Shown in pieces: positions 15,425 to 33,443 of a stretch of 64,000 bases of DNA (its first letter is position 1; each line of letters starts with the position of its first letter). A program made the position numbers and the translations under genes. This DNA comes from Ensifer sp. LC163 (GTDB taxonomy: Bacteria; Pseudomonadota; Alphaproteobacteria; Rhizobiales; Rhizobiaceae). The notes beneath the pieces were generated by a model. It saw nothing but the letters and a program-made list of their open reading frames with translations. It was not told the origin of the DNA and did not search any database. The stretch spans positions 186,001-250,000 of the forward strand of contig NZ_MBSS01000045.1 in NCBI RefSeq assembly GCF_001695855.1, written 5' to 3'.

Positions 15425-16618
15425 ATGGCGATTGGCGTCACAACTACGCCTGAGAAGAGCAAACCTTCCGGCTCGATCATCAACGACCCGCAAGTGCGCG
15501 GGATATTTTACCAGGTCGTAACCGTCGTTATTCTCGTGACCGTCATCTATTGGATAGCGGACAACACGATCGAAAACCTCAAGCGCGCAAACATCGCGTC
15601 CGGCTACGGCTTCCTCAACGGGCGTGCCGGTTTCGACGTCGGACAGTCCTTGATCGCCTATACCAGCGATTCTACCTACGGACGGGCCCTCGTCGTCGGT
15701 TTCGTCAATACGCTGCTTGTGGCGGTGACCGGCATCATCACCGCAACGATCATCGGCTTCATCGTCGGCATCGGACGGCTCTCGCACAATTGGCTGATCG
15801 CGAAACTGTCGCTCGCTTATGTCGAAGTGTTCCGCAACATTCCGCCGCTTTTGGTCATTTTCTTCTGGTACAGCGGCGTATTGGCGGTGCTTCCGCAGCC
15901 GCGGGAATCGGCCGCGCTGCCGCTCAACATCTTCCTCAACAACCGCGGCATCGCCTTTCCGAAGCCGGTCTTCGGCGACGGCTCGCAGTATGTCTTCTAT
16001 GCGTTCGTGATCGCTGTCATCGCCAGCTTCTTCGTGGCCCGCTATGCGCGCATCAAACAGGAAGCAACAGGACAACGCTTCCCGTTGCTGTGGTCGGTGC
16101 TCGGTCTCGTCATTGGCTTGCCGCTCCTCACCTTCCTGGCGACCGGTTCGCCGATCACCTTCGACGTGCCGGTCGCCGGCAAGTTCAACCTCACCGGCGG
16201 CTCGGTCATCGGGCCGGAGTTCCTGTCACTGTTCCTGGCGCTTTCCTTCTATACCGCAGCCTTTATCGCCGAGATCGTTCGTGCCGGTATCCGCGGCGTC
16301 TCCAAGGGACAGACCGAAGCAGCCCATGCGCTCGGCGTCCGGCCCGGTCTGACAACCCGCCTCGTCGTCGTGCCGCAGGCAATGCGGATCATCATTCCGC
16401 CGCTCACCAGCCAGTATCTCAACCTGACCAAGAACTCGTCGCTGGCGATCGCCATCGGCTACGCCGACCTGGTTGCCGTCGGCGGAACGATTCTCAACCA
16501 GACCGGTCAAGCGATCGAGGTCGTTTCGATCTGGATCATCGTCTACCTGACGCTGAGCCTGACGACGTCCTTGCTGATGAACTGGTTCAATGCCCGCATG
16601 GCCCTGGTGGAGAGGTAA
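15425..16618 (+). CDS. aapQ: General L-amino-acid ABC transporter permease AapQ
   Basis: A 397-residue inner-membrane permease with about eight hydrophobic segments and the binding-protein-dependent permease EAA-type loop ([22 protein letters not shown]). The unusually long N-terminal half and the large periplasmic insert are typical of AapQ/BztB. It pairs with AapM to form the channel. It follows aapJ by 92 bases and precedes aapM by 4. Confidence 0.96.
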
Positions 16619-16622
16619 GATC

Positions 16623-17777
16623 ATGAACACACACCAGGCGACTTTCGTCCGTGCCTCGATGATCGAGGCCTCACCGGCGCCCGTCCAGACGGGTGGTCTT
16701 GCTTACTGGCTGCGCAAGAACCTCTTTGCGACGCCGAAAGATACGGTCCTTACGATCGTAAGCTTGCTTGTACTCGCCTGGCTCGTGCCGCCGGCGATAC
16801 AATGGCTCTTCATCGACGCCGCCTGGACGGGCGGCGGGCGTGGGGTCTGTGCGACCGTCGCACAGGGCGGCACGCAGCCGGAGGGCTGGAGCGGCGCCTG
16901 CTGGGCCTTCGTCAATGCCAAGTTCGACCAGTTCCTCTTCGGGCGCTACCCGATCGAGGAGCGCTGGCGGCCGGCGCTTATCGGCATCCTGTTCATCCTG
17001 TTGCTGACGCCGATGCTGATCCCGAAGGTTCCCTACAAGAACATCAACGCAATCCTGCTTCTCGGCGCCTTGCCGATCCTGGCGCTCGTTCTGCTGCCTG
17101 GCGGCTGGTTCGGACTGCCGTTCGTTGAAACGCCACTGTGGGGCGGCCTCATGGTGACGCTGGTGCTGTCCTTCGTCGGCATCGCGGTATCCCTGCCCTT
17201 CGGCATCCTGCTTGCGCTTGGCCGGCGATCGACCATGCCGGTGATCAAGATGCTCTGCACGTTCTTCATCGAAGTTGTGCGTGGCATCCCGCTCATCACC
17301 GTTCTGTTCATGGCAAGCGTGATGCTGCCGTTGTTCCTGCCGCAGGGGGTGACCTTCGACAAGTTCCTGCGGGCACTGATCGGCGTGTCGTTCTTCGCCT
17401 CCGCCTATATGGCAGAGGTGGTGCGCGGCGGTCTGCAGGCGATCGGCAAGGGGCAGTATGAAGGCGCCGATTCGCTCGGCCTCAGCTATTGGCAGAAGAT
17501 GAACCTCATCGTGCTGCCGCAGGCGCTGAAGCTGGTGATCCCCGGCATCGTCAACACCTTCATCGGACTGTTCAAGGATACGTCGCTGGTCTCGATCATC
17601 GGCATGTTCGACCTGCTCGGCATCGTCCGACTGAACTTCTCGGATGCCAACTGGGCCTCGGCGGTCACACCGATTTCCGGGCTAATTTTCGCAGGCTTCA
17701 TATTCTGGCTTTTCTGCTTTGGTATGTCGCGCTATTCAGGCTTCATGGAACGCGTGCTGGACACGAGCCATAAATGA
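16623..17777 (+). CDS. aapM: General L-amino-acid ABC transporter permease AapM
   Basis: A 384-residue second permease subunit of the Aap transporter (AapM/BztC type). The EAA loop reads [24 protein letters not shown]-type sequence near residues 280-300, and hydrophobic segments flank a large insert (about 60-130). The ATG at 16623 lies 4 bases after the aapQ stop. The next gene, aapP, starts 17 bases after its stop. Confidence 0.96.
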
Positions 17778-17794
17778 TAAGAGGGGGAGATCGC

Positions 17795-18571
17795 ATGGCC
17801 AATGCTGCCACTGCTTCCAAGATGACCGTATCGGCAACTGACGTTGCGGTCGAAATCAGCGGAATGAACAAATGGTACGGAGACTTCCACGTTCTCCGTG
17901 ACATCAACCTGAAGGTCATGAAAGGCGAGCGCATCGTCATCGCCGGGCCGTCGGGCTCCGGCAAATCGACGATGATCCGCTGCATCAACCGGCTGGAAGA
18001 GCATCAGAAGGGCAAGATCGTCGTCGACGGCATCGAGCTCACGAACGACCTGAAGAAGATCGATGAAGTGCGCCGCGAAGTCGGCATGGTGTTCCAGCAC
18101 TTCAACCTGTTCCCGCACCTGACGATCCTGGAAAACTGCACGCTTGCACCGATCTGGGTCCGCAAGATGCCGAAGAAGCAGGCCGAAGAAATCGCGATGC
18201 ACTTCCTGAAGCGCGTCAAGATCCCCGAGCAGGCCAACAAGTATCCGGGTCAGCTTTCGGGCGGCCAGCAGCAGCGCGTGGCGATTGCCCGCTCACTGTG
18301 CATGAAGCCGAAGATTCTGCTGTTCGATGAGCCGACCTCGGCGCTCGATCCGGAAATGGTGAAAGAAGTGCTCGACACGATGGTCGGCCTTGCCGAAGAA
18401 GGCATGACCATGCTGTGCGTGACCCACGAAATGGGCTTTGCCCGCCAGGTCGCCAACCGCGTGATCTTCATGGACCAGGGCCAGATCGTCGAACAGAATT
18501 CGCCGGCCGAGTTCTTCGACAATCCGCAGCATGAGCGCACCAAGCTCTTCCTCAGCCAGATCCTGCACTAG
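17795..18571 (+). CDS. aapP: General L-amino-acid ABC transporter ATP-binding protein
   Basis: A 258-residue ABC ATPase that powers the AapQM permease. Walker [10 protein letters not shown] is at 51-59, the signature [12 protein letters not shown] near 154-165, and Walker [14 protein letters not shown] near 174-186. GAGGGGGAG precedes the ATG at 17795; a longer reading from 17774 would overlap aapM and place this ribosome-binding site inside the gene. Last gene of the operon, followed by a strong terminator. Confidence 0.96.
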
Positions 18572-18594
18572 GCATCGCCTCGGACCTAAAAAAG

Positions 18595-18622
18595 AAAGCC
18601 CGCTTTTCCAGGCGGGCTTTTT
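18595..18622 (+). terminator. Rho-independent terminator of aapJQMP
   Basis: Arms AAAGCCCGC and GCGGGCTTT around an 8-base loop, followed by further T residues, 24 bases after the aapP stop. It may mark the left edge of the accessory block that follows. Confidence 0.9.
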
Positions 18623-18647
18623 GATGTCCGATCCACCACGAAAACGA

Positions 18648-20168
18648 TCATTCGACGTGGTAGCGCAGGGTGCCGACCGACCACCGGATGCCGCGTTTGT
18701 CCAGGTCATCAGTCCAGATCTTCTGCAGCCGCGAGACTATTTCGCTCAAAGTCTCACGCGCGTTGAGTTCAACCTTGAGGCCCCGCGTCTTCGGCGCGAC
18801 GTCAGCCAGATCGACGGCGTCGCTGACCACCAAGGCAACGAACGCACTCTCGCCTTTGCCTGAGGCTTCAAAGTCGAAGCCGTAATACTCATCCGGCAAT
18901 GTCAACGGCACATTGGCGCTGAGCGGCGTAATCTTCTGTGCGAACTCGTTGGGGAAGATCTGGGTCGCTGCGCCCGCCGTGTTGACGTCCAGCAGGATGA
19001 GGCTACCGGCAACCTTGCTCGCGACCGTCAGCTTGAACACGTCACCGGTCTTCATCGACGTTGGCCGGTCGATGCTAATGGTCACGTCACCAGCGTCCAT
19101 TTTGCCGACGATATCGCCGATCGCATCGACTGCGTTCGCATCCTGATAGCTTGCCTGGCCGGTGTTATCGCCTATGGCGGGCTCGTACCGCGCCTTCGCC
19201 TCGGCACCTGCCTGTGCTGGAATGACCGCACTGGCGCCGAGGTTCTGCGCCTTCGTCTCCAGTTGCGGGTCAAGCGTGTCGCATTTCTCCTGCGAGGCGC
19301 AATAGGTCGCCGATTGCGCCGTGACGTATTCGAAAAGCTCGGCGTTGCTGGTCAGGCCGTTGGCGTTGGCGTCCGCCGCCGCCCCCGTCTGCCCGGCGAC
19401 ATAGGCCGCGGTAAAGACGCCGTGACGGCTCTCGACCGGCAGTCGCACGTCGTCCCAGGCAACCTGATAGGGCGCACTGGCGCGCCAGGCAACGATGCCG
19501 CTCTCGTTGGCGCGGCTGGGCTTATCGATGACACCGAGATCGATCCGCAGGCCGCGCGTCAGCGCCTGCTCCACCGGTTTGGCTTCCGGGCGCGGCAGGA
19601 AGCGCGCGCCGTCAATGCCGGCGGACACCTCGTCCGACAGCGACCGCGAGATCGTACCGGAGTGACAGGCGTCGATCACCAGGGTTACCGCCCTGCCCTT
19701 CAAGCGCTCGAGGATGGCATCGAGTTCGTCATCGGTGACGGCACCCACCCAATCCTTGGCCTTGGCGGCAAGGTCGAACGGCGCCAACGCCTCATCCATG
19801 CCGTCGTCCTCGTCGCCATCCTGATCCGTCACCTGAAGGCCTTGACCCGAATAGTAGAGATAGGCGCGGTCGCCAGGTTGCGTGCCCGCCACCAGCCATT
19901 CCTCGATCGACGACAGGATGGCTGTGCGCGTCGCCTGCTCGTCCTTCAGCACCCGTATCGCGGAGCGATCGAAACCGAGCCTCCCGGTCAGCAGACCTTC
20001 CATGGCAACAAGGTCGTTCTTCGGTCCGTGCAGAAACAGCTTTGGCGGAAGGCTCTGATAATTCCCTACCCCGATGAGCAAGGCTCGATCCGCGGCCAAG
20101 ACAGGAGAGCAGAGACCCAGCCCCATAAGCGGCAGCAGGAAACGCCAGGCCAGGACGTCCCCACTCAT
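18648..20168 (-). CDS. Secreted caspase-family (C14) protein with Gln replacing the catalytic His, plus DUF4384-like domain
   Basis: A 506-residue exported protein. Signal peptide 1-26 (cleavage near VLAA-DRA), then a caspase-like p20 domain (27-200). The Cys motif VIDACHSG is intact (C168), but the His motif reads YYSGQG, with Gln109 (codon CAA) where active members have His. DDGMDEALAP (121-130) matches the conserved DxxDE block. A degenerate EF-hand-like loop DANANGLTSNAE lies near 266-277, and a DUF4384-like region at about 375-455. This is probably an inactive pseudo-caspase, perhaps a partner or regulator of the neighbouring caspase. Last gene of the five-gene operon; its start overlaps the previous stop by 4 bases. 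Confidence 0.85.
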   Translation of the reverse strand: MSGDVLAWRFLLPLMGLGLCSPVLAADRALLIGVGNYQSLPPKLFLHGPKNDLVAMEGLLTGRLGFDRSAIRVLKDEQATRTAILSSIEEWLVAGTQPGDRAYLYYSGQGLQVTDQDGDEDDGMDEALAPFDLAAKAKDWVGAVTDDELDAILERLKGRAVTLVIDACHSGTISRSLSDEVSAGIDGARFLPRPEAKPVEQALTRGLRIDLGVIDKPSRANESGIVAWRASAPYQVAWDDVRLPVESRHGVFTAAYVAGQTGAAADANANGLTSNAELFEYVTAQSATYCASQEKCDTLDPQLETKAQNLGASAVIPAQAGAEAKARYEPAIGDNTGQASYQDANAVDAIGDIVGKMDAGDVTISIDRPTSMKTGDVFKLTVASKVAGSLILLDVNTAGAATQIFPNEFAQKITPLSANVPLTLPDEYYGFDFEASGKGESAFVALVVSDAVDLADVAPKTRGLKVELNARETLSEIVSRLQKIWTDDLDKRGIRWSVGTLRYHVE

Positions 20169-21721
20169 TGCCCGCGCTCCCGCGTATAGAGCGGCTGGAT
20201 GGCGATGGCACTGTCGGTACCGTCAAGCCGCTCTTCGAGGAGGCGCAGAAACTTGGATGCATCGACACCCGGGTTGGATAGGGCGGCAGCCACCGCATCG
20301 ATCGGGGCGTTCGTCGAGACGACGACAAGGTGATCGGCGCCGAAAGGTTTGACCACCTCCAGGTCCCTGAGTTTGAACACATGGCTGCCCGAGCCCTCGA
20401 TCTGGGCATCGAGAAGCTGGATTTCGCCGGTATTGGCGAGATTGAACACCAGCATGTTCGCGTATCCGGACTGGGGCGCGTCGAAGTTCAGGCGGTCGCC
20501 TGATGAATAGATGTCCTTGACCGGCGTCAGCGAGACTTTGCCAGGGTTCTGTGCGGCAAGCACTTTCAGGAAATCGAGAAGGACGAATTTGTCGACCACA
20601 CCCTGCACCATGTCGGCGGCGACATGTTCACCCGCGACGTCGCCATTCGGCGTGTAGAATGTGCCGCTCGTGGCATCCCATCGATAGGGAACGCCAGTGC
20701 CGCCAACATTGTCGAGCTTTGGCGCGGCGCCTTCGACGCTCAGGGCCAGCTTGCCCGCCCAGCCCATTTCTCGGGCCGGTTTCAGCTTTGACGGTCGACC
20801 GGACGCTGCTGTGCCATTGTCTGCCGAAAGCGTCGCGCTTCTGGGCAACGACAGGACAATTTCCTTGTCCGACCGCGGCACCTGCGGCGTAAAGTTCGGC
20901 ACCTGCAGCGCCTCGGACTGGAGCTTGACGTTGGAAAAGACATAGTCCTCGAGCTCGACGCGCGAAATCAGGCCGTCGCCATCACGATCGGCAGCCCCCT
21001 CGAGCGCGCGGGAAAAACTCCAGCTGAGTGCCCCCCGCGGCACACCCTCAATCACAACCTCCGGCGTCGGTTGGCTCTCAAGCGATGCAGCAAGGATGGT
21101 CACTTGTGACAGATCCGCATCCTTGAGCGCCGCACCAGAAACCGCCTCTTGCGACGGCGGCGGCAATTGCGCCCGCACGGTCGGCGCGAGCCGCGTCTTG
21201 CCCGAGATCGATCGGTTCATGCCACCGGAATAGCAGCTGTCGGAAACCAACAGCACCTGGACGCCCTTGGCCTCAGCTTCCGCGAACCAGGCATTCAGCT
21301 CGTTATCGACGATGATCTCCTTTGCCGTTTCTTCCGCGCGACTACGGTCGAATCCCGGCAGCTCAAGAAACTCGTCAAGCCCATCCGGTTCGCTGCCGGC
21401 GACGAGTTCCGGCATCTGCGCGCCGTGACCGGCATAGGTGAAGATAATCGTGTCGCCCCTCGTTGCGGCGCCGACAAGGTCCAGCCAGGCGGCTCTGATC
21501 GCGCCCTTCGCCGCCTGCTCGTTGATGAATTTGCGGATGGTACCGACACCAGCCTTCTTCAACGCCTGAGCAACATCGCGTGCATCCTTGACCGCCCCAT
21601 CAAGGCTCACTTCATGCGGGTAGATATCGACGCCGACCACGAGCGCGGATGTCGCCGCCATCGCGGGCAGAACCGGCAATCCAAAGAAAACGCACGAAAT
21701 CAGGATCTTGCGCAGCAGCAC
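20165..21721 (-). CDS. Secreted caspase-family (C14) peptidase with intact dyad and DUF4384-like C-terminus
   Basis: A 518-residue exported protein. Signal peptide 1-23 (AMA-A), caspase p20-like domain from about residue 25, His99 in TYAGHGAQ and Cys163 in VSDSCYSGG, so the catalytic dyad is complete. EPDGLDEFLEL (111-121) is the conserved acidic block. A canonical EF-hand-type loop DRDGDGLISRVE lies at 245-256, suggesting calcium binding. Residues 396-470 resemble a DUF4384 module. Probably a periplasmic cysteine endopeptidase of the orthocaspase type; substrate unknown. Its start directly follows the OmpA-family stop, and its stop overlaps the pseudo-caspase start. Confidence 0.88.
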   Translation of the reverse strand: MLLRKILISCVFFGLPVLPAMAATSALVVGVDIYPHEVSLDGAVKDARDVAQALKKAGVGTIRKFINEQAAKGAIRAAWLDLVGAATRGDTIIFTYAGHGAQMPELVAGSEPDGLDEFLELPGFDRSRAEETAKEIIVDNELNAWFAEAEAKGVQVLLVSDSCYSGGMNRSISGKTRLAPTVRAQLPPPSQEAVSGAALKDADLSQVTILAASLESQPTPEVVIEGVPRGALSWSFSRALEGAADRDGDGLISRVELEDYVFSNVKLQSEALQVPNFTPQVPRSDKEIVLSLPRSATLSADNGTAASGRPSKLKPAREMGWAGKLALSVEGAAPKLDNVGGTGVPYRWDATSGTFYTPNGDVAGEHVAADMVQGVVDKFVLLDFLKVLAAQNPGKVSLTPVKDIYSSGDRLNFDAPQSGYANMLVFNLANTGEIQLLDAQIEGSGSHVFKLRDLEVVKPFGADHLVVVSTNAPIDAVAAALSNPGVDASKFLRLLEERLDGTDSAIAIQPLYTRERGQ

Positions 21722-22624
21722 CTATTTCTCCACATCAACTTCGACACGGCGATCCAATTGATGCAGCATCGCTTCGTCATAGGCGCTCGGATCATCCGGC
21801 TTGAACGGCTCCTCCTCGCCTTTGCCAACAGTCGACCATGTGCCGCTGTAGCCGGCATCGACGAGATAGTTCGCGAGTGCTTCGGCGCGTGCCAACGAGA
21901 GTTTCTTGTTCGCCTCAGTGCTGCCCACCGGATCGGTGTGTCCGATCAAGGTGATCGCTTCCGGCTTTGCCGATTTCAGGCACTCGAAAAGATCCTTGGC
22001 AGACTGCAGTCCTTCGGGCGTGAACTCAGCCGTTCCGAAGACATAGCGGACGGGTGTCGCCTTCTTCCTGATCGAGACGCCGCGATAGGAGAATTTGCAG
22101 GCACCGCGCATCGCAAGCTTTACAGGCTTCGCTGCGGCAAGCCGCATCTCGGAGGCCAGCCGGTCGAGGCGCAGAATGTAGGCCTTGTCCGGCGCCATCC
22201 ACTGAGGCGTCAGTTCCTCGTTGGCGGCATCTTCCAGCGCCTGCTGGTAAAATGTCGCCGCACTTTCGTAGTCCTTTCGCTGCCGGTCGATGTCACCGAG
22301 CGCGTCGAGGATTTGCCATGGCCCGCCGACCTCATCCCGCACCGCTTTCAGCTCGCTGTCAAAGGTATCGAGCCTGGCGCCGCCACCGACCGCGTTGGCG
22401 ATACGGTTGAAGGTCGCAAGCGCCGCGACACGCCGCGTAAGCGCTGCCTCTGTACTCGAGCACGCCTTGGTTCGCTCCGCAGAGGCGGCCGCCCGCGCAC
22501 CGGCCTCATCGCCGCTGTTGAGAGCCTGCGAGGCTTTCGCCAGCGCATCGCAGGCGCTAGCGGGATACGCCAACGGCAATAGCATCGTGGAAGCAAAGAT
22601 CAGTCGTTTCACCCGATTCCTCAT
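21722..22624 (-). CDS. OmpA-family domain protein with helical N-terminal region
   Basis: A 300-residue exported protein. A signal peptide ends near ASA-C25; the context PASAC is only a poor lipobox. A helical region with a TPR-like stretch (about 105-135) follows, then a C-terminal OmpA-like peptidoglycan-binding domain (about 190-299) with GHTDPVGSTEANKKLSLARA and the closing LDRRVEVDV. It probably tethers the system to the cell wall. Third gene of the operon, 9 bases after the cytochrome gene and abutting the caspase gene. Confidence 0.88.
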   Translation of the reverse strand: MRNRVKRLIFASTMLLPLAYPASACDALAKASQALNSGDEAGARAAASAERTKACSSTEAALTRRVAALATFNRIANAVGGGARLDTFDSELKAVRDEVGGPWQILDALGDIDRQRKDYESAATFYQQALEDAANEELTPQWMAPDKAYILRLDRLASEMRLAAAKPVKLAMRGACKFSYRGVSIRKKATPVRYVFGTAEFTPEGLQSAKDLFECLKSAKPEAITLIGHTDPVGSTEANKKLSLARAEALANYLVDAGYSGTWSTVGKGEEEPFKPDDPSAYDEAMLHQLDRRVEVDVEK

Positions 22625-22633
22625 CTGTGGCGG

Positions 22634-25600
22634 CTAGTCCTTGATCTCGAAAGTTACCATCTGCACGCTGCTGGCGCCGTTGTCGGCCTGCGCCTTCTTG
22701 GCGAGATTGACTGCCAGCCCGCGCGTCGGCGGCAGCTTCGACGCAGCCACATATTCCCGCGCCTTTTCGACTGTCAGCCTCTGATCGGCAAGCCCGCCGA
22801 CGCGGCAGAAGGCCAACATCGTTTCGGCGGGCGCTGCCGTATCGAAGGTCAGCGTGCCGGTCCCAGGCTGCGGGATCACCCTGCTTTCTCCGGGTTGCAA
22901 GGTCGTATTGCCGATCATCTCGTCCGGGATAACTTCGACATTACCGTTCTCCTCGACATAGAGGATCTGCAGTTCGCAAGCCTGATTGACGCTCAACTCG
23001 AACGAAAGCTCATCACCGACCTTGGCCGTTGTCGTCGGCACCTTCAATGCGAGTGCAAGCTTGTTGCCGCCAGCGACTTCCTGCTTGCGGTAGTCGGGCA
23101 CCGCGGCGGCCACGGATTGAGGCTTTGCTTCGGGCTGCTGCTCGCTTCCGGCAACAACGATCGTGCCGGTATCGAGCGGGCGACGCTGGACGAGCGGCTC
23201 CAGCAGCAAGGCATATTGCTGCTCAACCTCGTTGCGCGGCACGGTGTTGCCGGCCTCCAGCGTCGTCACCCAATCGAGCCCGAGACGAAGGACATTCGTA
23301 TCCGTCACCCGCTTGATCGCATCGGAAAACTCTTGCGGCGTCATGTCGAACTCCGCCGCAAGAGCATCGAAGTCGAGCTCGTCTTCGTATTTATCGGCGA
23401 AATAGGTGACGATCTCGGCGTCGCCGGGTGCGTGCTTGCTCTGGAGTCCGCCGTCCGGTGTCGGCTCTGTCACGCCGAGTTGTTGCAGGGCCTCGACGAA
23501 GCGTTGGCGATCCCTAAGGTAGGCCTCATCCAGTTCCTCCTGTTTCACATACATGGCCAACAGAACATCCTGCTGGTCCTTGCTGAACAGTGTCGAGGTG
23601 GCGATATGGTCGCGCAACTGGTCGCGTTTCGAAAGAATACCGTCTGCGTGACAGTCGAAACAGGAGCGGGCGTTGACGATTTCCACCCCCTTGCCGATCG
23701 GCCGTTCGCGGAACGAAACGATGGTCGTCGGCCCGATATCGAGCTGCTTGCCTGCCGCCGTCGACAGGTAGTAACCCTGCAGGCCGTTGGGCAGCGAGAA
23801 GATCATCTCGCCGCCATCGTGCTCGAACGGCACCAGGCCAGCATCGAGCGCGCCCAATTCCTTGGGTCCGTGCGGGAAACGCTTCAGCACCTGTTTGCCG
23901 ACGTCGCCGCCGAAGTCGTAGGACTTCCAGTAGTAACCGCCAAACGGCATATCGTGCCGCTCGAGCATGCGATTGTGATCCGAGACACCCGACGAGCCAT
24001 CCGCAAAGCCGGCGCGCAGAACCTTGCGCCGCCTGATGTTGTCGTCCACATCGATCTTGAAGCGCGCTTCCAGCTCGCGGATATGCGCCGGCAACCTCAT
24101 CAACCTGTTGTAGATCTCCGGACGGGCGCCATTGCTCATGAACCAGTCAATCCGCATGATCGGCAACTGCGTCTGCGTTTCGTCGGAAAGCGCCTGAAGC
24201 GACGCGTCGCTCTTCGGATCGACGCCGTAGAAATAGCGCTTGATCAGGAAGTCGTAATCGGCGCTCTCCCATTGCAACTCACGCAGATCGACCCGCACGA
24301 GCAGACCGTTGGTGCCATCCACCTCCGCCGGCAAGACCAGCTTCGGTCCAGAGGAGAGCGAGTTCAGCAGCTTCTTGAAGCCGCCCGCCAGAACGTCCAT
24401 GCGTTTCATGAACGTGGCCTCATCTTCGCAACCCATCATTCCGTTGTACTGGTCGCGATAGGAAAAATAACGCATGTGCGGGCGATCGAGCGCGCTCACC
24501 TTGGAGATGTCCTTGAGCGCGAACGCGACGAACTGATCATAGGACAACATCGGGCGGGATCGATCGGGTTTGGCGGCCGCCGTCTGCGGCAGGTTCTTTT
24601 CGCTCAGCGAATTGATCCAGCCTTCGAGCACCTTGACCTCTTCGTCCGTCGGGCGCTTGCCGAGCGGCATGCGGCCGCTGGTAACCGAGGTGAAAAGGCG
24701 CGATTTGGCAGCATTGCCCGGCGTGACAAAATTGGCATCGGCGGCGATCGAAGCAAGTTCACCGGCGGGATAGCTACCTTGATTGCTTTCGCCCGCGCCG
24801 TGGCAATTGCGGCAATACTTGCCAATGAAGGCATCCGCCTGTTGGGCGAGCGCCGCATTGTCGCCGGACAATACGGCAGAGGCGGTGTTCTCTTTGCACA
24901 CGGCCGTCACAGACTGCGCAACCGGCGCCGGCGCCTTGACCTCGCGATCGGACAGGAAAGCATAGATCGCGCGGCGATCATCATCGCTGAGCGCCGAAAG
25001 TCCCTTGGCGATCCGCCGCATGACGGGGTCGCTGATCGGTGCGCCGGACAGCTTCTTGCCTTCGCCGATAAGACCCGTCGTAAACACGTCCGGTGCCGCG
25101 AGCCCGGCCATCTTCGCCTTGCCGATATCGGGTGCGACCGCACCAGTCAGCCCCTTCTCGCCCTGATAGGCTCTTTCCAGGTCAAGCCCGTAGGTCGTCG
25201 TACGCGGCGTGTGACAGTCGCCGCAGCCGCCGACATTTTCGACCAGATAGCGGCCGCGCTCCATCTGGGTCTCTTCGCGCGACTGATATGCCGGCACGGT
25301 GAAATGAGTGCGTTTCCATAGCGTTATCGTCGTCTGACGACTAAAGGGAAAAGCGATCTCATGTTCCTTCGAGGCGGCGTCGGACTGCGGCAAGGTCTCG
25401 ACATAGGCTTTGATATCAAGCACGTCCTCCGGCTTCATGCCGCCATAGGAGGTATAGGGCATGACCGGATAGAGGTTGTTGCCATCGCGATCGAGACCGA
25501 CCATCACCGCGTTGAGAAATTGGGCGTTGCTCCAGCCACCGATGCCGTTGGCGTGGGGCGAGATGTTCGGCGCGTAAAAAGTTCCGATGGCGGTGTTCAT

Positions 25601-25861
25601 CTCCATGCCGCCGGACAGCAACTCGGTATTGTCACCGGATCCATGGCAGGCGCCACAGCCGGCGGCGTTGAACATGTACTTGCCGTGCTCGGCATTCGCC
25701 TTGTAGGTCGAGAAAGCATCGTCGGCGAAAGCATCGCGCGCCGAGGCCGTCCCGGGACAGAGCATCGCGGCGGCAAGAGCCGCGGCCACGGCTACGATAG
25801 ATTTCCTCTGGATACCGGCACACCGCGAGACATTCTCTCGCATATCACGCTGGCTGCGCAT
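22634..25861 (-). CDS. Secreted four-haem cytochrome c fusion protein with DUF4384-like C-terminus
   Basis: A 1075-residue exported protein with four CXXCH haem sites: C69-H73 (CGACH), C213-H217 (CGDCH), C350-H354 (CRNCH) and C734-H738 (CFDCH). Residues 50-310 resemble the di-haem cytochrome subunits of membrane alcohol/aldehyde dehydrogenases (NISPHANGIGGW, LYPVMPYTSYGGM). Residues 340-425 form a third cytochrome c domain. A long region (440-740) ends in the fourth haem and contains IFSLPNGLQGYYL. Residues 935-1030 resemble DUF4384. I chose the ATG at 25859-25861 because GAGGGGGTAGGG precedes it and a basic leader plus signal peptide follow; an ATG 11 codons upstream lacks a ribosome-binding site. 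Likely electron acceptor of the upstream flavocytochrome. Confidence 0.85.
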   Translation of the reverse strand: MRSQRDMRENVSRCAGIQRKSIVAVAAALAAAMLCPGTASARDAFADDAFSTYKANAEHGKYMFNAAGCGACHGSGDNTELLSGGMEMNTAIGTFYAPNISPHANGIGGWSNAQFLNAVMVGLDRDGNNLYPVMPYTSYGGMKPEDVLDIKAYVETLPQSDAASKEHEIAFPFSRQTTITLWKRTHFTVPAYQSREETQMERGRYLVENVGGCGDCHTPRTTTYGLDLERAYQGEKGLTGAVAPDIGKAKMAGLAAPDVFTTGLIGEGKKLSGAPISDPVMRRIAKGLSALSDDDRRAIYAFLSDREVKAPAPVAQSVTAVCKENTASAVLSGDNAALAQQADAFIGKYCRNCHGAGESNQGSYPAGELASIAADANFVTPGNAAKSRLFTSVTSGRMPLGKRPTDEEVKVLEGWINSLSEKNLPQTAAAKPDRSRPMLSYDQFVAFALKDISKVSALDRPHMRYFSYRDQYNGMMGCEDEATFMKRMDVLAGGFKKLLNSLSSGPKLVLPAEVDGTNGLLVRVDLRELQWESADYDFLIKRYFYGVDPKSDASLQALSDETQTQLPIMRIDWFMSNGARPEIYNRLMRLPAHIRELEARFKIDVDDNIRRRKVLRAGFADGSSGVSDHNRMLERHDMPFGGYYWKSYDFGGDVGKQVLKRFPHGPKELGALDAGLVPFEHDGGEMIFSLPNGLQGYYLSTAAGKQLDIGPTTIVSFRERPIGKGVEIVNARSCFDCHADGILSKRDQLRDHIATSTLFSKDQQDVLLAMYVKQEELDEAYLRDRQRFVEALQQLGVTEPTPDGGLQSKHAPGDAEIVTYFADKYEDELDFDALAAEFDMTPQEFSDAIKRVTDTNVLRLGLDWVTTLEAGNTVPRNEVEQQYALLLEPLVQRRPLDTGTIVVAGSEQQPEAKPQSVAAAVPDYRKQEVAGGNKLALALKVPTTTAKVGDELSFELSVNQACELQILYVEENGNVEVIPDEMIGNTTLQPGESRVIPQPGTGTLTFDTAAPAETMLAFCRVGGLADQRLTVEKAREYVAASKLPPTRGLAVNLAKKAQADNGASSVQMVTFEIKD

Positions 25862-25906
25862 GAGCCCTACCCCCTCAATCAAAAAGATCGTCATTAAAAC
25901 GTCTGT

Positions 25907-27193
25907 TTACCGAAACTGAAACTGTTCGAATTCTACCCGGCGCGGCTTCTTTCCCAGTTCTTTCAAGCCTTTGACGATCGCCTCGCGCAAGGGCGGCGGA
26001 CCGCAAAACCAAAGATCCGCGTCGCCTGGATCAATCGCGCTGCCGGCCGCAAGCTTCGCCGCGTCCAACCGCCCGTCCGTAGCCGAATCGTGCAACACAA
26101 AACTGAAATTGCCGAGTTTCGCTGCCTGCGCCTCGAAGGTTTCCAGGCCAATCGCCTCGTTTCGGTCACGCACGCAGTAGACCATATGGATGTCCTGCCC
26201 CTCGTCGCCCCGCAAATGACGGGCCATCGCCAGGAAAGGCGTGACCCCGATACCACCGGCAAGCCAAATCTGTTTCTTGGCGCCACGGCGATGATTGAAC
26301 CGGCCATATCCGCCCTCGAGCTTCAATCGGTCTCCTATGGCGATTTTCTCCCGCAGGGCCCGCGTGTAGTCGCCGAGCGGCTTGATGGCGAAGCGCACAA
26401 CGCCATCGGCCTCGATGCCGGCGATGGTGAAGGGGTGCGGCTCGCGCAATCCGTTTTTCAGGACACGCAGGAAGCCGAATTGACCGGGCTTTGCCTTCAG
26501 CGCTCGTCCGATCGGTCGGGCCGAGATAATGGTCGCGCCATCGTGCCGGGTGACTTCGAAAACCTCATAGCTGCGCGTCCTCAGCCACGGCAGAAGCTGG
26601 GTATAGGCGTAGCTTAGAATGCCGAGTGCGGCGAAGGCGTTGAGGTAGACTGCAAGCAGTGCCGTCCCGTCATAAGGGCGCTTGATGAACATCTGGTGGA
26701 ACGCGACGAGTACGAACAGCAATCCGATGAAGCGATGGGTATAGCGCCACAGGTGATAGGGAATCTCGATCTTCGTCTTCGGTATGATCTTGACGATGCT
26801 GAGAACAAGCAGCGCGCTCAGCCCATAGAAGGCATACTTTCCGGCGGAAGCGGCAAGCTGGTTCAGCCCACTCGTCAACGACAGCCCCTTGAAATCAGGC
26901 GTCAGAAAGTAATGCACGAGGATCAGACCCAGCACCGAGATGCCGATCTTACGATGAAAGTGATAGACCCGATCGAGCCCGCCAAACAGGGGCTCGATAA
27001 AGGGCGGTCGCGCCGCCATGAACTGTGCGATCGCCATGCAGACAAAAGCCATGGACGAGGCCATCAGTGAGAACGTCGTCGTCGCATTCGTGTGGCTGAC
27101 GGCCGGTACGACAAGCAACCCCGCGAACACGACCAGCGACCAGACCAGAAACGCTCCCACCTTACGTCCGCGCCCCTCAACGCCGATTGCCAA
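25907..27193 (-). CDS. NOX/ferric-reductase-like membrane flavocytochrome
   Basis: A 428-residue protein with about six transmembrane helices (15-205) and a C-terminal FAD/NAD(P)H-binding reductase module. The haem-ligand pattern of the NADPH-oxidase/ferric-reductase family is complete: H80-x13-H94 and H153-x12-H166. The FAD motif HPFTIAG (253-259), nucleotide motif AGGIGVTPF (312-320) and CGPPPLREA (398-406) follow. It should move electrons from cytoplasmic NAD(P)H across the membrane. The start is uncertain: TTG at 27191-27193 keeps a basic N-terminus but lacks a ribosome-binding site; GTG at 27158-27160 is the alternative. First gene of the operon, 45 bases from the cytochrome start. Confidence 0.85.
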   Translation of the reverse strand: MAIGVEGRGRKVGAFLVWSLVVFAGLLVVPAVSHTNATTTFSLMASSMAFVCMAIAQFMAARPPFIEPLFGGLDRVYHFHRKIGISVLGLILVHYFLTPDFKGLSLTSGLNQLAASAGKYAFYGLSALLVLSIVKIIPKTKIEIPYHLWRYTHRFIGLLFVLVAFHQMFIKRPYDGTALLAVYLNAFAALGILSYAYTQLLPWLRTRSYEVFEVTRHDGATIISARPIGRALKAKPGQFGFLRVLKNGLREPHPFTIAGIEADGVVRFAIKPLGDYTRALREKIAIGDRLKLEGGYGRFNHRRGAKKQIWLAGGIGVTPFLAMARHLRGDEGQDIHMVYCVRDRNEAIGLETFEAQAAKLGNFSFVLHDSATDGRLDAAKLAAGSAIDPGDADLWFCGPPPLREAIVKGLKELGKKPRRVEFEQFQFR

Positions 27194-27253
27194 CGGCTTA
27201 TTTTAGAGAAGACTGGCAAGCAGTTGGCTCGTCGTCAATATCATTTGAAAGTG

Positions 27254-28494: not shown

Positions 28495-29307
28495 TTAGCC
28501 GACAAAAGCGCGCTCGATGACAAACTCGGCCGGCTTGTTGTTGGAGCCCTCAGTCAGGCCCGCAGCCTCGAGAATTTCCTTGGTGTCCTTAAGCATCGCC
28601 GTCGAACCGCAGATCATGCCGCGGTCGATGGCCGGGTCGAGCGGGGGAAGGCCGAGGTCTGCGAAGAACTTGCCGTTGACCATCAGATCGGTCACACGGC
28701 CCTTGAACGGATAGTCTTCGCGGGTCACCGTCGCATAGTGGCGAAGCTTGTCGCCGACGATCTCGTTCAGGAACTCGTGAGCGCGGATCTCCTCGACGAG
28801 GTCGAAGCCGTATTTCAGCTCGGCCACATCGCGGCAGGTGTGCGTGAGGATGACCTCCTCGAATTTCTCATAGGTCTCGGGGTCGCGGATCAGGCTGGCG
28901 AAAGGCGCAATGCCGGTGCCGGTCGAGAACATGTACAACCGGCGCCCGGGAACCAGTGCATCAAGCACCAGCGTGCCGGTCGGCTTCTTGCGCATCAGCA
29001 CCTTGTCGCCGGGCTTGATCGCCTGCAGGTGGGACGTCAGCGGACCATCGGGAACCTTGATCGAGAAGAACTCGAGTTCCTCGTCCCAGGCCGGGCTTGC
29101 GATCGAATAGGCGCGGTAGACCGGCTTGTCGCCGACCATCAAACCAATCATCGCAAATTCGCCGGAGCGGAAGCGGAACTCCGCAGGACGGGTCATGCGG
29201 AAGCGGAAGAGCCGATCCGTATAGTGGGTGACGCTCGTCACCGTCTCAACGAAGACACCTGCCGGTGCCTGGATCGCGAAATCTTCCGTTTTTGCCGGAG
29301 CATTCAT
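28495..29307 (-). CDS. fpr: Ferredoxin/flavodoxin--NADP+ reductase
   Basis: A 270-residue flavoenzyme of the bacterial FNR subclass that exchanges electrons between NADP(H) and ferredoxin or flavodoxin. The FAD motif RAYSIAS and nucleotide motif STGTGIAPFASL are present, as is the long C-terminal extension of this subclass ending FVIERAFVG. The start at 29305-29307 (MNAPAKT) was chosen by family length. It lies 145 bases after the DUF934 gene and may supply reducing power to the neighbouring sulfite reductase. Confidence 0.94.
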   Translation of the reverse strand: MNAPAKTEDFAIQAPAGVFVETVTSVTHYTDRLFRFRMTRPAEFRFRSGEFAMIGLMVGDKPVYRAYSIASPAWDEELEFFSIKVPDGPLTSHLQAIKPGDKVLMRKKPTGTLVLDALVPGRRLYMFSTGTGIAPFASLIRDPETYEKFEEVILTHTCRDVAELKYGFDLVEEIRAHEFLNEIVGDKLRHYATVTREDYPFKGRVTDLMVNGKFFADLGLPPLDPAIDRGMICGSTAMLKDTKEILEAAGLTEGSNNKPAEFVIERAFVG

Positions 29308-29452
29308 CGTGGCTACAGTCCTGTAAATGATGACCCTGTCTATCAACAATACGCGGATATTCCAAGCCGCGCTCAACGGGAAGGAATTCCCTTCTAAATA
29401 TAGTCGCTTTCGCGCATTTCGCCGTGCTTCACACTGTCGCGGTCAACACTGC

Positions 29453-29953
29453 TTAGGAAACACGCCGCCAGCTATAGGATCTGGCGTCGGTCGAGGGCTT
29501 TGCCGTCGGCTGGTAGTGATTGGCGATGCCAGGCAGCCGGCCCTCACTCAGACGCTTCAAGGCCGTGGCATTGGTTACCGCGAAACTGTCGATGCCGCAA
29601 CGCAGCATCAACGGGATCTGATCGATCAGCACATCACCGACCGCTCTCACCTCGCCGGCAAAACCAAGCCTGGCACGCAGCAGCGACGCATGGCTGAAAG
29701 CCCGCCCGTCATTAAAGGCCGGGAATGCGACCGCGACCAGCGCAATGCGATCGAGATGGGGCTGCAGCTTGGTAACGTCATCCGCCGGAGCGACGACCAC
29801 GCCCAGGCCGACCTCGTCCGTCTCGGTCACCTTGGCGAGAAACGTATCGAAGCCGAGTATCGCCTTCTCATTCGAACCCGCCTTGGTTTCCTCGTTTTCG
29901 ATGATCCATGGATCATCGCTCACAAAGCCGGTTTCTTTCCAGATTTTTGTCAT
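29453..29953 (-). CDS. DUF934 family protein of the sulfite-reduction operon
   Basis: A 166-residue cytoplasmic protein of the DUF934 family, which is regularly found next to cysI in Proteobacteria. Its role is not established; help with sulfite-reductase function or electron supply has been suggested from context. Visible blocks are DDPWIIENEE near the N-terminus and LLRARLGFAGEVRAVGDVLIDQ in the middle. It starts 16 bases after the cysI stop. Confidence 0.88.
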   Translation of the reverse strand: MTKIWKETGFVSDDPWIIENEETKAGSNEKAILGFDTFLAKVTETDEVGLGVVVAPADDVTKLQPHLDRIALVAVAFPAFNDGRAFSHASLLRARLGFAGEVRAVGDVLIDQIPLMLRCGIDSFAVTNATALKRLSEGRLPGIANHYQPTAKPSTDARSYSWRRVS

Positions 29954-29969
29954 GTTCGTTCCTCGCGCC

Positions 29970-31643
29970 TCAAGCGGCTTCCTGTGCGCTGCCGCCATAG
30001 AGCGCGTCCTTGAAGGGTTGCGGGCCGACACGACGGTACGCCTCAAGGAACGTTTCCGACTTGTCGTTGCGCAGCCCAAGATAGGTATCGACGATCGTTT
30101 CGATCGCGTCGGTCACCTTCTCGGGTTCGAAACCGCGACCGATGATCTCGCCGATCGACGTGTTCTCGTCGCCGGAGCCGCCGAGCGTGATCTGATAGAG
30201 CTCCGCACCCTTCTTCTCGACGCCGAGCAGACCGATGTGGCCAACATGGTGGTGGCCGCAGGCATTGATGCAGCCGGAGATCTTGATCTTCAACTCGCCA
30301 ATCTCGGCCTGGCGCTCGGGTGCTCCGAAACGGGTCGAGATCTCCTGTGCCACCGGAATGGAGCGCGCGTTTGCAAGCGCGCAGTAGTCGAGCCCGGGAC
30401 AGGCAATGATGTCGGTGATCAGGCCGGCATTGGCGGTCGCCAGGCCGGCAACCACGAGCGCCCGGTAAATCGGCTCCAGATCGGCCAGAGCCACATGCGG
30501 CAGGATCAGGTTCTGCTCATGGCTGACGCGGATCTCGTCGAAGGCATATTCCTCGGCGATATCGGCAACGGCTTCCATCTGCATATCCGTCGCGTCACCT
30601 GGAATGCCGCCGATCGGCTTCAGCGAGATGGTGACCATGCCGTAGTCCGGATGCTTGTGTGGCTGGACGTTCTGGTGAACCCAACGCGAAAATTCCGGAT
30701 CGGTCTTCTTCCAGCGCGCCAGGCTTTCCCAGCCTTCGGCGCGCGGCTCCAGCGCCGGCGGCGCGAAATAGGTGGAGATGGCCTGGATATCCGCTTCCGG
30801 AAGCTTCAGCTCCGTATCCTTCAGCGCCGCGAACTCGACCTCGACCTGACGGGAAAGCTCCTCGGCACCAGTTTCGTGAACGAGGATCTTGATGCGCGCC
30901 TTGTACTTGTTATCGCGGCGGCCATGCAGGTTGTACACGCGCATGATCGCCGTCGTGTAGGACAGAAGATCTTCTTCCGGCAGGAAGTCGCGGATCTTCT
31001 TGGCGATCATCGGCGTGCGGCCCTGTCCGCCGCCGACATAGACGGCAAAGCCGATCCGGCCGTTCTCATCCTTCTTCAGGTGCAGACCGATATCGTGCAC
31101 CTGGATCGCGGCGCGGTCGCGCTCGGCACCGGTCACGGCAATCTTGAACTTGCGCGGCAGGAACGAGAATTCCGGATGAACGCTCGACCACTGTCTCAGG
31201 ATTTCCGCATAAGGTCTTGGATCTGCGACTTCATCGGCTGCAGCACCAGCAAAGTGATCGGCCGTCACGTTGCGAATGCAATTGCCCGAGGTCTGCAGCG
31301 CATGCATTTCCACGCTTGCCAGTTCCTCCAGGATATCCGGCGTGTCGGAAAGACGCGGCCAGTTGTACTGGATATTCTGACGCGTGGTGAAATGGCCGTA
31401 GCCGCGATCGTACTTGCGCGCAATGTGCGCAAGCATGCGCATCTGGCGGCTCGACAGCGTGCCATAGGGGATCGCAACGCGAAGCATGTAGGCATGAAGC
31501 TGCAGATAGACGCCGTTCATCAGGCGCAGCGGCTTGAATGCGTCCTCGGCCAGCTCGCCGCTCAGACGGCGCTCGACCTGGTCGCGGAACTGCTCGACAC
31601 GCGAGGAAACGAAGGCATGATCGAATTCATCGTAACGGTACAT
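29970..31643 (-). CDS. cysI: Sulfite (nitrite/sulfite) reductase, haemoprotein subunit
   Basis: A 557-residue ferredoxin-type sirohaem/[4Fe-4S] reductase that makes sulfide for cysteine synthesis. Two ferredoxin-like half domains surround the cofactor ligands: C-x5-C in CPGLDYC and C-x3-C in CINAC, followed by GHHHVGHIG. RHFTTRQ-like substrate residues appear as GHFTTRQNIQ. It belongs to the cysG-DUF2849-cysI-DUF934 operon, with sirohaem supplied by CysG. Assimilatory nitrite reductases share the fold; the cys context favours sulfite. Confidence 0.92.
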   Translation of the reverse strand: MYRYDEFDHAFVSSRVEQFRDQVERRLSGELAEDAFKPLRLMNGVYLQLHAYMLRVAIPYGTLSSRQMRMLAHIARKYDRGYGHFTTRQNIQYNWPRLSDTPDILEELASVEMHALQTSGNCIRNVTADHFAGAAADEVADPRPYAEILRQWSSVHPEFSFLPRKFKIAVTGAERDRAAIQVHDIGLHLKKDENGRIGFAVYVGGGQGRTPMIAKKIRDFLPEEDLLSYTTAIMRVYNLHGRRDNKYKARIKILVHETGAEELSRQVEVEFAALKDTELKLPEADIQAISTYFAPPALEPRAEGWESLARWKKTDPEFSRWVHQNVQPHKHPDYGMVTISLKPIGGIPGDATDMQMEAVADIAEEYAFDEIRVSHEQNLILPHVALADLEPIYRALVVAGLATANAGLITDIIACPGLDYCALANARSIPVAQEISTRFGAPERQAEIGELKIKISGCINACGHHHVGHIGLLGVEKKGAELYQITLGGSGDENTSIGEIIGRGFEPEKVTDAIETIVDTYLGLRNDKSETFLEAYRRVGPQPFKDALYGGSAQEAA

Positions 31644-31657
31644 GTTGTATCGGTTCC

Positions 31658-31972
31658 TCAGGCAGCAAAGTTCGGGCCGGCGAGCCCATTGTATCCGGCG
31701 GCATAGGGGATCGAAGGGCCTTCGGCGCGGATGCGCTCGCGCATGCGCAGCGGCCGCAACGTGCCGTTGACTTCCTCGACGTCGACGACATTGACGTCCA
31801 CGACCTTGTTGTCGTCGAAGGCAAGCTTGCCTGTCGCTTCCAGCGCGGTGACTGCCTCGGCATGGCGGGCAATGAAGGCCTGCTGGAGCGATTCGACCCA
31901 GTTGCCCGAGGCATCCAGCCACACGGATATGCCATCCGAGAGCCGATTTGCCGTCAAAACCTTGTTCACCAT
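31658..31972 (-). CDS. DUF2849 family protein
   Basis: A 104-residue protein of the DUF2849 family, found between cysG and cysI in many Alphaproteobacteria; function unknown. It begins MVNKVLTANRLSDGISVWLD and ends in a Gly/Pro-rich tail. An adjacent GTG at 31973-31975 is an alternative start; AGGGA precedes both. Gaps of 10 and 14 bases to its neighbours indicate one operon. Confidence 0.87.
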   Translation of the reverse strand: MVNKVLTANRLSDGISVWLDASGNWVESLQQAFIARHAEAVTALEATGKLAFDDNKVVDVNVVDVEEVNGTLRPLRMRERIRAEGPSIPYAAGYNGLAGPNFAA

Positions 31973-31982
31973 CACGTTTCCC

Positions 31983-33443
31983 TTAGTTCAGAATCTGTTC
32001 GTTGCGCTGTTGAGCAGCTTCGATCTTCGTTTGCTTGACGGCGCGCTTGCCTGCCACCAGCGGTTCGGAACGCTCGAAATTCGCGCCTGCAACGGCATCG
32101 CCGATGATGACCATGACCGGTCCGGAAAGCTCGGTGCGGCCCTCCAGGTCCGGCAGGTCCTTAAGCGTGCCATGCAACAGGCGACGGTCGGCGCGGCTGG
32201 CGTTTTCGATCACAGCCACTGTGGTTTCCGCTGGCAGCCCCGCCTGCATCAGGCGACCGGCAACCGAAGCAGCGACGGTGCGGCCCATATAGACGGCGAT
32301 CGTGGCACCGGAAACGGCAAGCCGCGCCCAATCCGGCAGCACTTCGCCGGTCAGATCGTGGCCGGTGGTGAAGACCAGCGACGATGCGACACCGCGCAAG
32401 GTCAGCGGCAACTCGAAATCGGCGGCGGCGGCAAAGGCGGAGGTGATGCCAGGCACGATCTCATAGGTGATATCAGCTTCGCGCAGCGCCGCCATCTCTT
32501 CGCCGGCACGGCCGTAGACAAGCGGATCGCCGGACTTCAGGCGAACGACGCGCTTGCCCTCACCCGCGAGCCTTACCAGAAGCTGGTTGATCTCGTCTTG
32601 CGACTTCGTGTGGCAACCCTTGCGCTTACCGACGGAAAGCCGCTCGGCATCGCGGCGGCCCATGTCGACGATCGCCTGCGGTACAAGGGCATCATAGACG
32701 ATTGCATCGGCTTCCATCATCACGCGCTGGGCGCGCAGCGTCAGCAGATCCTCGGCGCCAGGACCGGCACCAACGAGCCAGACGTGGCCCGAGGCTGCGT
32801 GCGCGGCATCGAGCAGACGGGAGGCCTCGCGGCGCGCGGCGGCGACATCGCCAAGCGCAACCTTGTCGGCCACCGGCCCCTGGAAGAACCGGCGCCAGAA
32901 CAGGCGGCGCGCGACACCGCGCGGCACAAGACGATCGACGGCATCGCGATAACCGGCGGCGAGCGACGCAACGACACCGAGCGACGGCGACAGCAGTTGA
33001 TCGATCTGCGCCCGGATCATCTGGGCAAGCACCGGACCAGCGCCTTCGGTCCCGATCGCAACGGCGACCGGTGCGCGATTGACCAGCGCCGGTGTGAAGA
33101 AATCGCAGTAATCGGGCTGATCGACGGCGTTTGCCGGGATTTTCTGCTCGCGCGCGGCAATGACGATCTGCCGGTCCTCGGCGGCATCGCCGGTCGCGGC
33201 AAACACCAGAACGGCGCCCTCGAGCTGTTGCGGGTCGAAGGCCTCACGCACGGTTTCGATCGCCCGCTCGCGCAGGAACGTCTCGAAGTCAGCCTGAGGA
33301 GCATCCGCATAGACAACGATCGAGGCTTCGGTGTTCAGCAACAGCCGCAGCTTTGCAAAGGCCTCGTCGCCATTGCCGAATATCGGCACGCGCTTTTGCG
33401 CGACGCGAAAGAATGCGGGAAAGACGGAGAGCTGCTGCGACAT
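31983..33443 (-). CDS. cysG: Sirohaem synthase
   Basis: A 486-residue multifunctional enzyme that converts uroporphyrinogen III to sirohaem: N-terminal precorrin-2 dehydrogenase/ferrochelatase domain (about 1-210) and C-terminal uroporphyrinogen methyltransferase (about 220-465; VWLVGAGPGAEDLLTLRA, KSGDPLVYGRAGEE, PGITSAFAAAA). The nucleotide loop reads FGNGDEAFAKLRL, slightly off the usual GGG. The ATG at 33441-33443 starts the family-like sequence; the open frame upstream is not similar. Leads the sulfite-reduction operon. Confidence 0.94.
   Translation of the reverse strand: MSQQLSVFPAFFRVAQKRVPIFGNGDEAFAKLRLLLNTEASIVVYADAPQADFETFLRERAIETVREAFDPQQLEGAVLVFAATGDAAEDRQIVIAAREQKIPANAVDQPDYCDFFTPALVNRAPVAVAIGTEGAGPVLAQMIRAQIDQLLSPSLGVVASLAAGYRDAVDRLVPRGVARRLFWRRFFQGPVADKVALGDVAAARREASRLLDAAHAASGHVWLVGAGPGAEDLLTLRAQRVMMEADAIVYDALVPQAIVDMGRRDAERLSVGKRKGCHTKSQDEINQLLVRLAGEGKRVVRLKSGDPLVYGRAGEEMAALREADITYEIVPGITSAFAAAADFELPLTLRGVASSLVFTTGHDLTGEVLPDWARLAVSGATIAVYMGRTVAASVAGRLMQAGLPAETTVAVIENASRADRRLLHGTLKDLPDLEGRTELSGPVMVIIGDAVAGANFERSEPLVAGKRAVKQTKIEAAQQRNEQILN

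Follow-up and report, generated by a model that had tools for sequence, protein, structure and literature searches.

Five linked genes for a NOX-like flavocytochrome, a four-haem cytochrome, an OmpA-domain protein and two caspase-fold proteins probably form one envelope system in Ensifer and related bacteria

A 64,000-nucleotide stretch of the genome of Ensifer sp. LC163 (contig NZ_MBSS01000045.1, positions 186,001 to 250,000; hereafter the window) carries five minus-strand genes, which we named NOX, CYT, OMPA, CASA and CASB in the order of transcription. They encode a membrane flavocytochrome, an exported four-haem cytochrome, an exported protein with an OmpA domain and two proteins with a caspase fold. 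We found that these genes are conserved together far beyond the strain, and we consider it very probable that they form one real envelope system. Judging from sequence comparisons, the hub of this system is CYT; its most constant part is the cytochrome core, usually accompanied by an OmpA protein and a protease gene, and not the full set of five. The original prediction regarded the five genes as a single system, and this reading survives, given their joint conservation, a conserved promoter-like site and a terminator-like hairpin. It had further proposed a periplasmic redox-coupled protease or sensor, which is plausible, and had stated that no system of this composition was described. Among the matches listed, the titles and abstract beginnings of the open-licence literature contained no description of a set of NOX, cytochrome, OmpA and caspase genes, and we therefore rate the gene system as new. 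Every part except the central domain of CYT belongs to a known family.

The five open reading frames lie in one run from 27193 down to 18648, all at the predicted positions, and the predicted spacings of 45, 9, 0 and -4 bases are correct. The first of these is counted from the second ATG of CYT (25861); from the upstream ATG (25894), the NOX–CYT gap is 12 bases. The family assignments made from the sequence alone also held, as all five products gave Pfam matches above the curated cut-offs.

To follow the gene set in close relatives, we compared 48 loci from Ensifer, Sinorhizobium, Rhizobium, Pararhizobium, Metarhizobium, Shinella and other Rhizobiales. The nearest named relative in the searches was Ensifer adhaerens SD006, whose CYT is 98% identical, and CYT was present over nearly its whole length in 16 of 16 sampled genomes of the genus. 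The original prediction had made its reading depend on adjacency and order beyond the strain: the order and strand of all five genes are kept in 47 of the 48 relatives, and rearranged sets occur in other families. The count of 47 takes in L054, where a NOX fragment stands at the contig end, and L053, L066, L068, L073 and L078, where at least one gene has a short, over-long or interrupted frame, attributable to assembly errors or decay. In the exception, L079, NOX and CYT are accompanied by a shorter OmpA gene of a different kind and by two caspases that belong to another type. For residue counts, rows of abnormal length were dropped for NOX (1 of 48; L053), OMPA (2 of 48; L053, L078), CASA (3 of 48; L066, L068, L078) and CASB (2 of 48; L068, L073). 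As 15 of the 47 loci lack the aapJQMP flank even though the stretch extends past CASB (for example, L061, L063, L067 and L069 of Shinella), the five genes hold together independently of these neighbours. The stretch of L056 ends inside this flank.

At greater distance, the central domain of CYT served as the search profile. Profile A1 matched 2 of the 385 genomes sampled from the class, 3 of 398 from the phylum, 42 of 397 from the order and 15 of 248 from the family to which genome G214 belongs; the first three figures include the window's own genome. A broader profile gave no extra matches in the same phylum sample, so that with either profile the sole matches among the 398 Pseudomonadota genomes were three alphaproteobacteria. 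On plasmids, most of the cytochrome or the central domain was matched in Neorhizobium petrolearium only; 171 residues of the central domain used as a query found no match in phages. Besides the 47 loci, we collected 16 loci of the long, NOX-linked form (L138-L143, L151-L155, L086, L088, L079, L091 and G016, the last comprising L089/L090). A four-haem CYT with at least one caspase was present in 15 of the 16, and an OmpA gene likewise in 15, remote in L154; none was seen in L155. Rearranged sets of NOX, four-haem cytochrome, caspase and usually OmpA extend to other families, outside the order too. G951, from another family, has exactly NOX-CYT-OMPA-CASA-CASB; in G214, G1207 and G1224, NOX-CYT-OMPA-CASA is extended by further caspases; G1361 carries NOX-CYT-OmpA-caspase-caspase; and the plasmid of N. 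petrolearium has caspase-OmpA-NOX-CYT. In L155, NOX lies 6 kb away on the other strand and CYT forms a very long branch. CYT of G016 is split over two contigs, one of which runs at least 18 kb past the gene.

We then measured how far caspase genes gather around the cytochrome. Across 27 genomes that have a long-form CYT, 180 caspase genes were counted, of which 41 begin no more than 10 kb from that gene, versus 0.92 expected; at least one caspase lies within this distance in 14 of 16 genera, versus 0.54 expected. The computed tail of 4e-20 is not a true probability, because the genera share ancestry and may have exchanged the cluster. For a control, we took related dihaem cytochromes from 7 of the 27 genomes, one per genome, and none of the seven had a caspase within 10 kb.

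Several of these loci have peculiarities of their own. In G214, the seven caspases that were found all cluster around CYT within 24 kb (L086; C1:975686-999700), some of them with PG_binding_1, SH3, lectin or LprI domains. Four caspase genes stand in a row within less than 9 kb in G1207 (C31:91525-100100), away from the cytochrome, in a genome with 20 matches overall. A probably exported 500-residue YARHG-domain protein (L154:7001-8503) is encoded between CYT and the caspases, in the usual place of OmpA, and a caspase fused to an FGE-sulfatase domain (L143:4023-6005) diverges from the NOX-CYT genes. On the N. petrolearium plasmid (L091), NOX-CYT is surrounded by four exported proteins that by eye resemble one another (7253-8407, 15463-16773, 16825-18051 and 18194-19036); the two that were scanned matched no Pfam family above the cut-off. 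In the genus g503 (L144-L150), an OmpA gene stands beside CYT in 6 of 7 loci, the contig of L147 starting at CYT. L144 also has a glutamate-synthase-like gene, and none of L144-L150 has a trypsin-like gene in the stretch fetched.

A short form of the system was represented by 21 loci: 20, mostly one per genus, chosen from longer lists, plus L087. It has a shorter, two-haem CYT core, and NOX was found in none of the 21 stretches fetched. By Pfam-confirmed matches, caspases accompany the core in 8 of the 21 loci, and a trypsin-like protease takes their place in 8 others, which form one clade and all come from the family of G214; six of these proteases carry SH3 domains, that of L169 carries Sel1 repeats and that of L174 a SPOR domain. 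Most of them begin with a signal-like stretch by eye, L172 being read with a long N-terminal extension and L174 being ambiguous. An OmpA gene is present at 14 of the 21 loci. That one protease class can replace another beside a retained cytochrome core suggests that the system functions in part through proteolysis, and it points to the cytochrome as the controller. At 8 of the 21 loci, the cluster also holds a separate dihaem cytochrome gene with two CXXCH motifs, adjoining the core in four and parted from it by caspase genes in the other four; the order in L158, L160 and L166 is dihaem cytochrome-CASA-CASB-core-OMPA. This module, separate in the short form and fused in the long form, provides classical fusion evidence for electron passage between dihaem module and core. 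In a tree of 34 cores, the NOX-linked form fell on one side of a branch (100/100), as did the trypsin-linked form (100/100).

The ends of the gene set were also inspected. A promoter-like site, TTGACG-17-CAGTCT, was found by pattern match at 27210..27238 (minus strand), 45 bases upstream of the NOX start. The pattern recurs in 36 of 48 related upstream regions versus 0.48 in mononucleotide shuffles, figures for a pattern drawn up after some regions had been inspected and for regions that share descent. Directly 3' of CASB, a hairpin scan revealed a terminator-like hairpin with a 9-pair stem and a T run (18595..18620, minus strand). Since the scan gave 7 such sites in 10 kb versus 8.4 in shuffles, the case for a terminator is made by position and stem length, not by count. 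Taken together, spacing, promoter-like site and hairpin are consistent with an operon-like organization of the five genes. Patterns for FixK/FNR, EcfG, RpoE, RpoH, Fur, RirA, Irr and OxyR matched 0 of 48 upstream regions each, a sigma-54 pattern matched 1 of 48, and a loose ChvI-like pattern matched 6 of 48 versus 1.4 expected. No Rfam family matched in the region. Further upstream, at 28495-33632 of the window, lie genes that by eye resemble those for ferredoxin-NADP reductase, sulfite reductase and sirohaem synthase.

CYT (22634..25894, minus strand; alternative start at 25861) is a protein of 1086 amino acids with Cytochrom_C, Cytochrome_CBB3 and DUF4384 matches in Pfam. The original prediction of a four-haem cytochrome was borne out, four CXXCH motifs being kept in 49 of 49 rows. 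The protein consists of a dihaem module, a third cytochrome domain, a central domain of about 500 residues that carries haem 4, and DUF4384. The dihaem module (residues ~65-330; 24905..25702), with CXXCH at 80-84 and 224-228, resembles the cytochrome subunit of fructose dehydrogenase (7w2j_C, E 1.7e-36), and DUF4384 occupies residues 958-1027 (22814..23023). The central domain (residues ~432-935; 23090..24601) has the fourth CXXCH at 745-749. It matched no Pfam family above the cut-off, and profiles A1 and A2 found nothing credible in the Protein Data Bank (PDB), with best E values of 0.29 and 0.088, the latter for a 21-position stretch around the CXXCH. Candidate sixth-ligand methionines for haems 1-3 are M145 (49/49 rows), M292 (48/49) and M409 (49/49). 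For haem 4, the 34-row family alignment has no methionine column at or above 75%; it has H692 in 31 of 34 rows, H647 in 29 and several tyrosines and tryptophans in all 34. Haem 4 may thus be a catalytic or sensory site.

NOX (25907..27193, minus strand; 428 amino acids) is an SpNOX-like flavocytochrome with Ferric_reduct, FAD_binding_8 and NAD_binding_1 domains in Pfam. Its best PDB match is 8qt6, over residues 35-427 (E 3.3e-39), and it has features of the SpNOX type: a Ferric_reduct membrane domain, FAD and NAD(P)H domains, and four histidines spaced 14 and 13. These residues, H80, H94, H153 and H166, are invariant in 47 of 47 rows. According to excerpts of PMC5676040, the haem-ligand histidines of SpNOX are 69/83 and 129/142, and SpNOX reduced cytochrome c under argon too, less efficiently; this report makes CYT a credible acceptor of NOX.

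OMPA (21722..22624, minus strand; 300 amino acids) has a weak TPR-like stretch, below the cut-off, and an OmpA domain (PF00691, 2.2e-14); C25, C55, C176 and C215 are invariant in 46 of 46 rows. Export of the products downstream of NOX, which had been proposed for each of them, was supported for most by a simple hydropathy and A-x-A rule, with signal peptides in 47 of 49 CYT, 46 of 46 OMPA, 36 of 48 CASA and 36 of 47 CASB rows. CASB of the window did not pass the strict rule; it has a hydrophobic stretch followed by V-L-A.

The prediction of two secreted caspases stood in part: both genes encode a caspase fold, but the second protein of the window lacks the catalytic histidine. CASA (20165..21721, minus strand; 518 amino acids; Peptidase_C14, PF00656) has the His-Cys dyad that defines Peptidase C14 (orthocaspases), formed by H99 and C163 and kept in all 45 close rows and all 11 distant ones (56/56). 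CASB (18648..20168, minus strand; 506 amino acids; PF00656 and the DUF4384 family PF14326) lacks this dyad in the window, with Q109 (codon 19842-19844, minus strand) in place of the histidine. Among close rows, the histidine is kept in 44 of 46 and the cysteine in 45 of 46, the departures being Q109 of the window, an arginine in L042 and the missing cysteine of L038; among distant rows, both residues are lost in 3 of 6 (L158, L160 and L166). Overall, the dyad is damaged in 6 of 52 CASB rows. Q109 is either a natural pseudo-caspase feature or a sequencing error. Because the window protein has no catalytic histidine, the two caspases are probably one protease and one pseudo-enzyme, and the comparison across rows suggests a pair of active caspase and pseudo-caspase. 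Both proteins of the window contain a stretch, DRDGDGLISRVE in CASA and DANANGLTSNAE in CASB, which by eye is EF-hand-like; calcium may therefore matter too. DUF4384 was found above the Pfam cut-off in CYT and CASB, and also in L168, and below it in the CASA-type proteins of L086, L158, L160 and L166. As HHalign comparisons between alignments gave low probabilities of 1-4%, the DUF4384 link comes from Pfam, and it is a weak hint of a shared docking domain.

These observations led us to a model that we tentatively favour while rating its chances at somewhat under even, in which a periplasmic cytochrome supplied with electrons by NAD(P)H controls by gating, or acts alongside, proteases anchored to peptidoglycan. 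NOX would draw electrons from cytoplasmic NAD(P)H, move them via FAD and its two b-haems across to the periplasm and pass them on to the dihaem module of CYT, from which they would continue to the third haem and then to the fourth in the central domain. This relay is suggested by domain order and by the fusion. Haem 4, without a family-wide distal methionine, may have a catalytic or sensory role towards an oxidant such as peroxide or oxygen. CYT would control the periplasmic protease CASA through its redox state, perhaps by way of DUF4384 contacts; the exchange between caspases and trypsin-like proteases is what makes a protease the likely output of the cytochrome. CASB, able to do without catalysis of its own, would be a partner with the caspase fold that probably regulates CASA, since it repeatedly loses catalytic residues beside an invariant CASA. 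OMPA would hold the assembly at peptidoglycan, and the output would be limited periplasmic proteolysis upon a change of envelope redox balance. We regard as doubtful a bolder version, a cytochrome c-caspase switch, in which a periplasmic c-type cytochrome, fed by NAD(P)H and equipped with a new haem domain, would directly license the pair of active caspase and pseudo-caspase. Such a switch would resemble the activation of caspases by cytochrome c through analogy and not through homology, with the alphaproteobacterial periplasm corresponding to the mitochondrial intermembrane space.

A number of findings weigh against the favoured model. Caspase linkage is weak in L140 and L141, where the nearest caspase lies kilobases away on the opposite strand. 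G016 has NOX, CYT and a short OmpA gene, and none of its 6 caspases is on the two cluster contigs; in the 7 genomes of g503, the stretches fetched, one as short as 9 kb, showed a four-haem CYT but no NOX and no caspase. Of the short-form loci, 5 of 21 have neither protease in the stretch fetched (L167 is on a 3.6 kb contig), and the trypsin-like gene of L169 is on the opposite strand. No site of a known redox-responsive regulator was found upstream of the genes (10 patterns, 48 regions). Across the 49 close rows, the central domain also has several conserved methionines, so haem 4 may possess a distal methionine in close relatives. HHalign gave probabilities of 2% for the CASA C-terminus and 4% for CASB against DUF4384 of CYT. 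Finally, the SpNOX authors noted that in detergent the FAD could be the donor to cytochrome c (excerpts of PMC5676040).

The favoured model was weighed against four others. The genes could serve quality control without any gating, with NOX and CYT detoxifying peroxide or reducing damaged periplasmic components, the proteases degrading what is irreparable, and a shared damage response keeping the genes grouped. We consider this unlikely but worth serious attention. A known NOX-like donor for periplasmic repair exists in E. coli, where MsrQ passes electrons to MsrP (cited in PMC5676040, as excerpted); the replacement of caspases by trypsin-like proteases, 6 of 8 with SH3 domains, suits general proteolysis; and other caspases of the clusters carry PG_binding_1, SH3, PAN, Sel1 or LprI domains. 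However, Pfam found no molybdopterin or methionine sulfoxide reductase domain among the five, and a repeatedly inactivated caspase partner suits regulation better than bulk degradation. Such varied, repeated caspases in clusters, as in the 24 kb of G214, would also fit a death or conflict switch, in which an oxidant or envelope breach alters the cytochrome and frees caspase activity that kills the cell or attacks a periplasmic invader. The caspase domain matches the PADLOC model PDLC02987, and the distribution is patchy. Nonetheless, this explanation seems improbable: the five genes include no other PADLOC component, OMPA giving only weak MotB-like and TPR matches, and the cytochrome, present in all 16 sampled genomes of the genus, does not behave like a fast-exchanged defence island.

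The ferric reductase fold and the multi-haem cytochrome are what an operon for iron or extracellular-electron reduction would offer, its proteases merely processing its own components. Several differently built caspases per locus and the trypsin-like replacement make this very unlikely, as do the absence of Fur-, RirA- and Irr-like patterns from all 48 upstream regions and of a porin-conduit gene from the five. We give hardly any credence to a coincidental neighbourhood of independent envelope genes kept by descent. Shared ancestry is real, as the 48 closest loci come from one order and by name mostly from one family, but rearranged orders, different flanks, different OmpA types and the replacement by a non-homologous protease in many genera speak against mere coincidence.

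Through a single conserved, operon-like cluster of a soil bacterium, the gene set bears on two questions at once: the role of bacterial caspase homologues outside phage defence and the physiological acceptor of bacterial NOX proteins. It offers the four-haem cytochrome as a candidate acceptor of NOX, together with a haem domain that belongs to no Pfam family and a candidate natural pair of active caspase and pseudo-caspase. The idea of an extracytoplasmic protease under redox control thereby becomes testable.

With SpNOX (8qt6; PMC5676040), NOX shares the identical spacing of two histidine pairs and the FAD and NAD domains over the matched residues; unlike SpNOX, it belongs to an operon-like group of genes that also encodes a c-type cytochrome and proteases, and its acceptor may be the cytochrome instead of O2. 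The main text of PMC5676040 does not contain "operon", "caspase" or "rhizobi-". In MsrPQ, too, a haem-b membrane donor feeds a periplasmic partner, whereas the five genes here, by Pfam, combine the donor with a c-type cytochrome and proteases and encode no MsrP-like molybdopterin partner. The N-terminal module of CYT is like the dihaem cytochrome c subunit of fructose and alcohol dehydrogenases (7w2j_C, 8gy2_B), to which CYT adds the third haem domain, the central domain with the fourth haem and DUF4384, in a set that by Pfam has no dehydrogenase partner gene. Metacaspase and orthocaspase operons are similar in placing C14 proteins in multi-gene operons, some with OmpA: excerpts of a prokaryotic survey (PMC3501461) describe several conserved types of operon and report OmpA in 14 of the 217 operons with a metacaspase, and "cytochrome", "ferric", "heme" and "electron transport" are absent from its main text, to which this statement is limited. 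Alphaproteobacterial Q-C pseudo-orthocaspases with a trypsin-like domain and DUF4384, as described in excerpts of PMC6426788, share with CASB of the window the Q-C dyad and DUF4384, and with the system the combination of trypsin and caspase. Theirs are almost always fused to the trypsin-like domain, whereas CASB has no trypsin domain by Pfam and usually keeps the histidine. As far as these excerpts go, they independently point to an association of trypsin, caspase and DUF4384.

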